A stretch of 64,000 bases of DNA, from contig NZ_BONF01000020.1 in NCBI RefSeq assembly GCF_016862575.1, positions 124,001 to 188,000 on the forward strand. Reading direction: 5' to 3'. The notes under the pieces are model-generated. The model was not told the origin of the DNA, did no database searches, and saw only the letters and a list, made by a program, of their open reading frames with translations. Position 1 is the stretch's first letter, and every line of letters begins with the position of its first letter. A program made the translations under genes and the position numbers. Origin of the DNA: Catellatospora bangladeshensis. Lineage in GTDB: Bacteria; Actinomycetota; Actinomycetes; Mycobacteriales; Micromonosporaceae. Below, piece after piece: positions 16,641-57,586 of this stretch.

Positions 16641-16667
16641 CCCTCAAGACCGTCCGAAAGATCGTCC

Positions 16668-16726
16668 GACTTGCCTGGCACATGGGCACTCCGGGGCTCC
16701 GGATAGGCCCGAGTGCCAGGCAAGTC
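16668..16726. terminator. large inverted repeat, bidirectional terminator
   Basis: Two 20-nt arms (16668-16687 and 16707-16726) pair at 18 positions, 14 of them consecutive (GACTTGCCTGGCAC with GTGCCAGGCAAGTC). It lies between the convergent cold-shock gene and mqnD. Confidence 0.7.
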
Positions 16727-16739
16727 CGCTGATCAAGGG

Positions 16740-24875: not shown

Positions 24876-24956
24876 TGGCGTCGATCTTGCGCGAACTGTT
24901 GCCTTTTTGTCGGGATGGTGCGTGTCGTCCCCACAGTTCGCGCAAGATCGACGCCA
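24876..24956. repeat. 24-bp perfect inverted repeat (GATC-containing), terminator-like
   Basis: The arms 24876-24899 and 24933-24956 are perfectly complementary and contain GATCTTGCGCGAACTGT and its complement. The 33-nt loop includes a T5 run. The element lies between the convergent thpR and aldo/keto reductase genes. Its form (GATC near both ends, long perfect arms) resembles the 61-bp family, but the sequence is different. It may act as a bidirectional terminator. Confidence 0.75.
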
Positions 24957-56713: not shown

Positions 56714-57034
56714 TTACGGCAGCGTCTGGTCGGTGATCCAGGCGAGGTAGGCCGGGTTGCCCGCGAGGATCGGGACGCAGAGGACCTCAGGCGTGTCGTA
56801 CGGGTGCGCGTCGAGCAGGTGCCGCTCCAGGGCGGCGTACCCGGCGGCGGTGGTCTTCAGCACGATCACCCACTCCTCGGCCTCCTCGACCGCGCCCTGC
56901 CAGCGGTAGGTGCTCGTGATCGGCCCGCCGACCTGCGCGCACGCGGCGAGCCTCGCCGTGACCGCGGAACGCGCCAGCTCCTGCGCCGCCGCCCGGCCGT
57001 CCACGGTCGTGACCACCTGTACGAACTCGCCCAT
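56714..57034 (-). CDS. cutA: CutA1 family protein
   Basis: 106 residues matching CutA1: FVQVVTTVDGRAAAQELARSAVTARLAACAQV, then GPITSTYRWQGAVEEAEEWVIVLKTT and HPYDTPEVLCVPILAGNPAYLAWI. CutA forms a trimer linked to divalent metal tolerance in some bacteria; its exact role is unclear. ATG 57034 has TAGCGT 7 nt upstream (leaderless), which excludes the longer frame starting at 57055. Confidence 0.92.
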   Translation of the reverse strand: MGEFVQVVTTVDGRAAAQELARSAVTARLAACAQVGGPITSTYRWQGAVEEAEEWVIVLKTTAAGYAALERHLLDAHPYDTPEVLCVPILAGNPAYLAWITDQTLP

Positions 57035-57120
57035 GCCCGTCACGCTAGTGCGCATCGCGGGGCGGGCTCCACCCGTGGCGGCGGTGGCGTGCGTGTACCC
57101 GTCGAGGAGGCGTCGACGCC

Positions 57121-57180
57121 GCAGTTTCCCCGAAAGTGCAGCCTCTTCGACCGTCGAGGCTGCAGTCTCCCCGAAGCTGC
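57121..57180. repeat. direct repeat with central hairpin
   Basis: Two 19-nt copies (57121-57139 and 57162-57180, 16/19 identical, sharing TCCCCGAA) flank a hairpin with arms TGCAGCCTC (57137-57145) and GAGGCTGCA (57156-57164). It sits between the lipoprotein gene end and cutA. It may be a terminator or a small dispersed repeat. Confidence 0.55.
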
Positions 57181-57203
57181 GGCTGCCGCAGGAGCGGCGC
57201 GGG

Positions 57204-57548
57204 TCAGCTGGCCGCGCGGGAGATCTCGACGACGACCTGGCTGTCGGTGACCGAGGTGACCTTGGCGCTGAAGTCGCCTACGTTGACGCCGTCGCCGCGC
57301 TGGATGGTGACCTGCTGGCCGCCCACCTTCAGGGTGGCCGACGTGTCGTCGGCGCTGACCAGCTGCACCTCGATGCCGAGGATCGAGATCTTCGCGTTGG
57401 TCACGTTTCGCTCGAACGTGATGGTGCAGGTGCTGGTGCTGCAGCTGGCCGTCGCGCCCTCGCCGCTGCACCCCGCCAGCGCGCCGCCGGTGAGCGCCGC
57501 CACGAGCGCAGCGGTCGCGGTGAGCCGGGCCATCCTCCGTGCGAACAT
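57204..57548 (-). CDS. small lipoprotein
   Basis: 114 residues. The signal peptide ends in the lipobox LAGC (near residue 26), followed by a Ser/Thr/Cys-rich stretch and a beta-rich domain (FERNVTNAKISILGIEVQLV; VTSVTDSQVVVEI). Family not recognised. ATG 57548 is chosen because TATGAT lies 7 nt upstream, making it leaderless; the frame extends to 57560 without signals. It is divergent from the inositol-phosphatase gene, 38 bp away. Confidence 0.72.
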   Translation of the reverse strand: MFARRMARLTATAALVAALTGGALAGCSGEGATASCSTSTCTITFERNVTNAKISILGIEVQLVSADDTSATLKVGGQQVTIQRGDGVNVGDFSAKVTSVTDSQVVVEISRAAS

Positions 57549-57586
57549 GTACGCGATCATAGACCGCCGGTGATAGGGATGTGACG

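Follow-up and report, generated by a model that had tools for sequence, protein, structure and literature searches.

The element at positions 57121 to 57180 of the window, the complete stretch of 64,000 nucleotides of Catellatospora bangladeshensis DNA analyzed here, is a member of a dispersed palindromic repeat family, named U. The copies of this repeat are dispersed, keep a strict spacing, are located at the 3′ ends of genes, have conserved units and bracket the gene of an enzyme, and the palindrome type agrees with the enzyme clade. The element is interpreted as a non-autonomous palindrome repeat with an AbiEi-endonuclease, presumed to copy it, as its likely partner, a reading that is held to be somewhat more likely than not. 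Palindrome-endonuclease pairs are a candidate class, with the association being well supported and the mechanism inferred.

The features of the element and its setting are the following:

57121 to 57139, + strand: palindromic unit U1, GCAGTTTCCCCGAAAGTGC, with the centre CCC, flipped in comparison to the ortholog in G007
57140 to 57161, no strand assigned: spacer of 22 nt, with 6-bp complementary ends AGCCTC/GAGGCT in the window copy
57162 to 57180, + strand: palindromic unit U2, GCAGTCTCCCCGAAGCTGC
57118 to 57183, no strand assigned: long imperfect hairpin of U1, spacer and U2, with the arms 57118-57145 and 57156-57183
57204 to 57560, − strand: gene for a lipoprotein-like product of 118 aa, with the stop codon 23 bp from the element, which lies behind the gene
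56714 to 57055, − strand: cutA (CutA1 family), with its start at 57055 or closer to 57034, and the element upstream

The two units are 19-bp near-palindromes, 41 bp apart from centre to centre. Aligned as direct repeats, they were 81% identical over 32 nt at the spacing of 41; aligned as inverted repeats, they gave 28-nt arms that were 79% complementary. The RNA fold of the element reached −50.1 kcal/mol, with z values of −3.29 for the + strand and −2.49 for the − strand. The orthologous copy in G007 possesses the common form GGG...CCC and the window copy CCC/CCC, so that one centre of the window copy was probably flipped, and the units resemble direct repeats because of this flipped CCC centre of U1. 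The sequence-only reading had claimed a 19-nt direct repeat flanking a hairpin between cutA and a lipoprotein gene. Two related 19-bp units were confirmed; the direct repeat around a hairpin held in part, and a doublet of near-palindromes forming a single long hairpin is the better description. CutA1 was also confirmed (PF03091, E 4.6e-33), and the assignment as lipoprotein rests on a lipobox-like LAGC after a hydrophobic stretch, read from the sequence, with no Pfam match for this 118-aa gene at E 0.001. Rfam at gathering scores reported two tRNAs in the window and nothing else. Within the window, only U1 and U2 matched GCAGTYTCCCCGAA exactly and one more place matched with 1 mismatch; the chance expectation for up to 2 mismatches was 0.77. 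Evidence for a repeat from the window alone is weak, since 3 of 100 shuffles also reached 3 matches. The copy in the window stands alone and has decayed in part.

The consensus of the U unit is GCAGTTTC-SSS-GAAACTGC, 19 bp in length, with the core TTTC-SSS-GAAA. The 14-mer GCAGTNTCCCCGAA occurred 103 times in the 8.83-Mb genome from which the window was taken (G000), compared to 0 for the reversed control, and this genome contained 73 strict U doublets. The full unit GCAGTTTCSSSGAAACTGC was present in all 11 genomes of the soil bacterium Catellatospora (4 to 120 units each, 65 in G000) and in none of 50 relatives outside this genus. A scan of named genome contigs returned at least 101 stretches, 97 of them from Catellatospora. 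Of the 4 remaining ones, L144 from a Micromonospora looked like a real doublet; Thalassomonas and two proteobacterial bins contributed one place each, and the unit was isolated in the 2 of these 3 places that were read. The core doublet TTTCSSSGAAA-N28..32-TTTCSSSGAAA was found in 27 of 300 Micromonosporaceae genomes (control, 0), which were the 11 Catellatospora genomes with 10 to 186 copies, G019 of another genus with 27 copies and 15 genomes with 1 to 4 copies. In these 15 genomes the arms differ, and the centres of the two cores were complementary at 11 of 15 loci read. The guess of the earlier reading that this may be another small dispersed repeat, to be checked by a search for copies in the genome and its relatives and refuted if there were none, is supported by the exact 14-mers and strict doublets in G000; the search yielded 10 to 186 doublets in each Catellatospora genome, and the refuting outcome did not occur. 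The strictly spaced palindrome doublet, its location at gene 3′ ends and the endonuclease gene bracketed by this palindrome go beyond that reading. Four 15-mers of the unit and four fragments of a neighboring repeat appeared in no paper of the open-access literature searched.

Nearest-neighbor units were 41 bp apart in 138 of 144 pairs, and the usual order of the centres, GGG in the first and CCC in the second unit, was present in 143 of 184 distinct doublets. Some loci contained three or four units, with numbers that differed between G000 and G007, which indicates local gain or loss of units, about 36 to 44 bp at a time. As an observation between close species, L044 and L016 compared to G007 contained 2 versus 4 and 3 versus 2 units, respectively. 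The palindrome of the high-copy genomes G008 and G009 (15 loci read each) is longer and more uniform, approximately ggTTCGTGCAG...CTGCACGAAcc and clearest in G008, and the element of G019 has a length of about 86 bp and TGATCGCG ends (21 matches at 15 loci, some elements being in more than one locus).

Ten orthologous element pairs of G000 and G007 were compared, not including L012 and L063, which have no element in G007, and L016 with its array change. The units were identical at 361 of 380 positions (95%), the spacers at 178 of 220 (81%) and the 50-bp flanks at 666 of 948 aligned positions (70%), with 104 additional gap columns. These pairs were selected for a recognizable doublet in both genomes, and this selection favors the units. 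Scanning the positions of G000 in G007 revealed 18 doublets, 2 single units and 2 absent elements. Positions were shared from G000 to vulcania in 6 of 6 cases, from G000 to sichuanensis in 5 of 6, from vulcania to G007 in 2 of 6, from G000 to KI3 in 0 of 3, from KI3 to G007 in 0 of 6, and from KI3 to tritici in 7 of 8. These counts indicate that U positions are mostly common to close species but different between clades. Clean empty sites or target duplications were not found, and wherever an orthologous site had no element, the intergenic DNA had diverged. At two sites without U, the G007 ortholog of L012 and L099, a different hairpin repeat of the TGATCATGAACTTATGG... type was located at the same position; intergenic 3′ ends possibly behave as shared slots for several palindrome families.

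The arms of the spacer did not covary within genomes (z 2.0 when pooled, −1.6 to 1.3 in single genomes), and a full-length hairpin under selection is therefore not proven; position-wise covariation signals in the pooled set are confounded by differences between species. No signal for complementary flanks beyond the element was obtained in the pooled set (duplex −36.30 versus −35.97), and single copies in G008 and G009 look extended beyond the element. Unit positions 16/45 apparently excluded each other, and the orientation looked asymmetric; both were rejected as an artefact of search patterns that demanded at least one perfect unit.

The doublets are located behind genes. Convergent and tandem gene pairs each enclosed 30 of the 68 doublets read in G000, a number in which arrays were counted more than once, and a divergent pair enclosed 1, so that 60 of the 61 classified copies adjoin the 3′ end of a gene. 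Of the other 7 doublets, 5 were located within a called gene and 2 were unclassified. The genes were called with our own caller based on codon usage, and the 5 doublets inside genes may represent false calls or real exceptions. The background, intergenic regions of at least 62 bp in 1.6 Mb of G007, comprised 130 convergent, 437 tandem and 228 divergent regions. In the same 1.6 Mb, 16 U elements were distributed as 6 tandem, 6 convergent, 4 inside a called gene and 0 divergent, 19 elements of a second palindrome, “type C,” as 7, 10, 0 and 2, and 24 copies of a third, GATCTTGCG, as 10, 12, 0 and 2. The median distance of the U doublets read in G000 was 31.5 bp to the nearest 3′ end versus 111 bp to a 5′ end. 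A stable hairpin behind stop codons meets the criterion for an intrinsic bidirectional terminator, with termination itself being inferred.

A gene for an endonuclease is bracketed by U. Two U doublets, 1 kb apart, enclose a frameshifted gene in G000, and two doublets in G019 enclose an intact homologue of this gene. With the G019 protein as query, 135 matches were found in 22 of 25 genomes, up to 14 in a single one. In G002, G003, G004, G007, G008 and G009, the best homologue is flanked left and right by U doublets at distances of up to about 220 bp, one side in G007 being a single strict core with a decayed partner. The gene of G010 is truncated and likewise bracketed by U. Together with G000, these are eight Catellatospora genomes with a U-bracketed gene. 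In a control stretch of G007, 1.6 Mb without this locus, none of the 1303 called genes was bracketed by U doublets at distances of up to 250 bp, and 21 had one on one side. The outer flanks are orthologous at all eight loci, which indicates that the U-type gene is one inherited locus; movement of the bracketed gene within the genus was rejected for these eight genomes. Genomes with a complete U-type gene contained 33, 45, 70, 126, 169 and 186 copies of U, and those with a broken gene or none found 10, 16, 21, 50 and 73 (one-sided p 0.041). This tendency is weak and confounded by phylogeny, with the three genomes of highest copy number being close relatives. G006 has 50 U copies and no U-bracketed gene among the loci read.

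The bracketed protein of about 300 aa is a fusion of an AbiEi-like part with a Vsr/homing-endonuclease-like (DUF559/MTES_1575) domain. In an alignment of 30 members, E196, D228 and D254 were invariant and E239, D241, H245 and R257 nearly so; Pfam assigned MTES_1575 to 29 of 30, DUF559 to 26 of 30 and AbiEi models to 6, 3 and 2 members. PADLOC AbiEi models matched the G019 protein with E 5e-11. The AlphaFold model (pLDDT 95.2, pTM 0.90) was closest in the PDB to Rv2827c (1zel, E 4.4e-4, TM 0.41), an AbiEi antitoxin, and to the catalytic domain of I-Bth0305I (3r3p, E 1.2e-3), an EDxHD enzyme related to Vsr; a profile search also matched 3r3p and 3hrl. The fold of the catalytic core and the acidic/His/Arg motif meet the criteria for an EDxHD/Vsr-like enzyme, with nuclease activity being inferred. 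In the enzyme tree, the palindrome type follows the clade. Both lineages with TTTC-SSS-GAAA, that of G019 and that of U, are placed together, and a G013 protein without a clear bracket is located between them.

Paralogues of the enzyme are bracketed by other palindromes: type C in G000, G002, G003, G005, G007 and G010; GATCTTGCG in G000, G002, G005, G007 and G010; TTAAAGAG in G001 and G006; GTTGCCGGGCAA in G004 and G008; and CAGGTACCTCA in G011. Distinct bracketing palindromes also occurred in other families of the order, at 5 of 10 loci tested in G043, 2 of 2 in G041 and 1 of 1 in G037. Matching flanks were absent at the other 5 loci of G043, at both loci tested in G040, at the single one in G045 and at all those tested in G012. 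Several of these palindromes are themselves dispersed. Type C doublets were counted in 61 genomes, with 43 in G000, 46 in G007 and 0 in G009 and 58 others; GATCTTGCG occurred at 24 places in 1.6 Mb of G007; and the arms of the G011 palindrome, with at most 1 mismatch allowed, matched 20 times at 11 places, compared to 2 matches for the reversed control.

A uniform test for a match between the left and the right flank with a threshold of E<=1e-6 was positive at 14 of 25 loci and at 34 of 63 loci, the latter compared to 4 of 393 control genes of G007 (Fisher p 1.7e-29); 29 of the 63 enzyme loci had no matching flanks. The 63 loci were drawn from the 135 matches by similarity and spread over the genomes, without G038, G039 and two G015 loci at contig ends, and the two discovery loci are not among them. 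Since many of these loci are orthologues, the p value overstates independence. More than a dozen palindrome types were distinguished by eye among the positives. A crude measure without gaps classified 20 of the 34 matched stretches as clearly palindromic (fraction >=0.6, a value reached by 5% of random 70-mers), and L418, L421 and L450 are weak or possibly other repeats. In the case of L418 (G000:C31), an identical 31-nt inverted pair, AAAGGAAGGGCACCTTCTTAACGCTATGCGT, surrounds the AbiEi-endonuclease gene and may represent another repeat family. Three of the four control positives were ordinary genes with the GATCTTGCG palindrome on either side, which means that abundance of a palindrome alone yields some bracketing. 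A clade of the enzyme with a degraded nuclease motif had matching flanks at 0 of 11 loci, three of which possessed U on one side, and may have a different, perhaps regulatory, role. This clade (MPKPPLRP...) comprises L374-L376, L386-L388, L393, L419, L420 and L425; sequences were read for 10 of the 11 loci, and the eleventh (G007A_2026913) was assigned from its match range.

In the preferred explanation, the N-terminal part of the enzyme would read the palindrome core TTTC-SSS-GAAA, which is present as two sites 41 bp, or about four helical turns, apart, and the nuclease would nick or cut at the element. Copies of the hairpin would pass at low frequency into the intergenic DNA behind genes and may persist there, since strong hairpins that work in both directions would do no harm behind a stop codon, or would be useful as terminators. 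Binding, cutting and copying of the palindrome by the enzyme are inferred and not shown, and termination is likewise inferred. A bolder reading, for which acceptance and rejection seem equally justified, is an order-wide undescribed class of AbiEi-DUF559/Vsr-like endonucleases, each of them bracketed by and propagating its own 3′-end palindrome, with several pairs in one genome, such as U, type C and GATCTTGCG in Catellatospora.

Alternatively, the palindromes may be bidirectional terminators owned by the host, which spread passively by recombination or template switching, with the pairs at the nuclease gene insulating a risky gene. The nearly exclusive 3′-end location, convergent pairs separated by little beyond the element, a hairpin stable in both strands and the local multiplication of units agree with this possibility, but a stem would suffice for a terminator, in contrast to a nearly fixed 19-bp sequence at a fixed 41-bp spacing, and the palindrome type tracks the enzyme clade with bracketing far above that of control genes, making this explanation unlikely. 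Homing-like gene conversion is likewise unlikely. Here, the nuclease would cut the palindromes and repair would homogenize them or restore the bracketed gene without true transposition, in agreement with a catalytic domain resembling that of a homing endonuclease, units more alike than their surroundings and a gene that stays at one locus. Gene conversion alone, however, leaves unexplained the positions not shared between clades, as for KI3 with 0 of 6 in G007 and 7 of 8 in tritici.

Binding sites of a host protein, belonging to a regulon or the nucleoid and unrelated to the enzyme, would fit the palindromic core, the spacing of about four helical turns and the conservation. The copies are behind genes, however, and not in promoters, 10 to 186 of them occur within one genus, and their positions differ between clades, so that this is very unlikely. 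The same grade was given to a MITE of an ordinary (DDE) insertion sequence: the elements are short, palindromic, dispersed and variable in copy number, but no target duplications or clean empty sites were found and no insertion sequence carrying such ends was encountered, albeit without a dedicated search. REPINs in the strict sense, mobilized by a RAYT (Y1) transposase, would have the same layout of conserved inverted ends and a variable spacer of set length. This possibility is practically ruled out: Y1_Tnp (PF01797) had no match in G000, G004, G006, G008 and G009 with their 50 to 186 doublets, and the TTTCSSSGAAA core was near none of the 9 Y1_Tnp loci read in the genus. The Y1 transposase was thus rejected as the partner of U, since it is absent from five copy-rich genomes and no core is near its loci.

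REP-like palindromes are common in bacteria, and to our knowledge no partner enzyme of them other than the RAYT transposase has been identified. REP doublets have a set spacing and less conserved spacers, RAYT genes are single copy and vertically inherited, and more REPINs exist where a RAYT is present (PMC3116915, PMC8049555). Similarly, U is an extragenic inverted doublet in which a conserved palindrome recurs at a set distance around a variable spacer, its partner gene is at one inherited locus bracketed by repeats dispersed elsewhere, and more U copies exist where the partner is complete, albeit weakly so (p 0.041, related genomes). Unlike REPIN-RAYT, the partner is an AbiEi-DUF559/Vsr-like nuclease instead of a Y1 transposase, and the units are self-palindromic with a 41-bp spacing. 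A GTAG/CGTC-type tag is located at the foot of REP (PMC3733652); no such tag was visible by eye in the U consensus ends GCAG...CTGC. The U system is consequently REPIN-RAYT-like in genome architecture but not a member. The enzyme shares the catalytic-domain sequence profile and fold with EDxHD/Vsr-like homing endonucleases such as I-Bth0305I but is fused to an AbiEi-like N-terminal part, and its gene is not in an intron but between two palindromes, which elsewhere in the genome also occur without it. Its N-terminal part resembles AbiEi antitoxins of type IV toxin-antitoxin systems (Rv2827c), which differ by the lack of the nuclease domain. Like MITEs and other small bacterial palindromic repeats, U is short, non-coding, palindromic and dispersed, but neither an insertion sequence that shares its ends nor a target duplication was observed. 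The open-access literature searched contained no title on a pair of a palindrome and DUF559-AbiEi, and the actinobacterial terms looked for were absent from PMC3733652.

If AbiEi-DUF559 nucleases are indeed a second kind of partner, the REP-RAYT way of life would have been invented twice, with unrelated enzymes. This would provide a role for many DUF559/AbiEi genes, the family being present in 22 of 25 genomes searched, explain how palindromes spread where RAYTs are missing, and connect nucleases of the homing type with settled populations of repeats. A gain of the host from such repeats would also become testable, since one cell contains several independent pairs that differ in their palindromes.

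Two minor observations concern the other palindromes. TGATC/GATCA or AAGATC/GATCTT are frequent ends of otherwise differing palindromes (L367, L368, L389, L415 and the G019 loci) and may be a shared cut or target signal. The window itself also contains a type C copy at 16660-16734, GATCGTCCGACTTGCCTGGCA...TGCCAGGCAAGTCCGCTGATC, from a dispersed family with its own endonuclease paralogue, and at 24877-24955 a copy of the GATCTTGCGCGAA palindrome, a third dispersed family that brackets an endonuclease paralogue.
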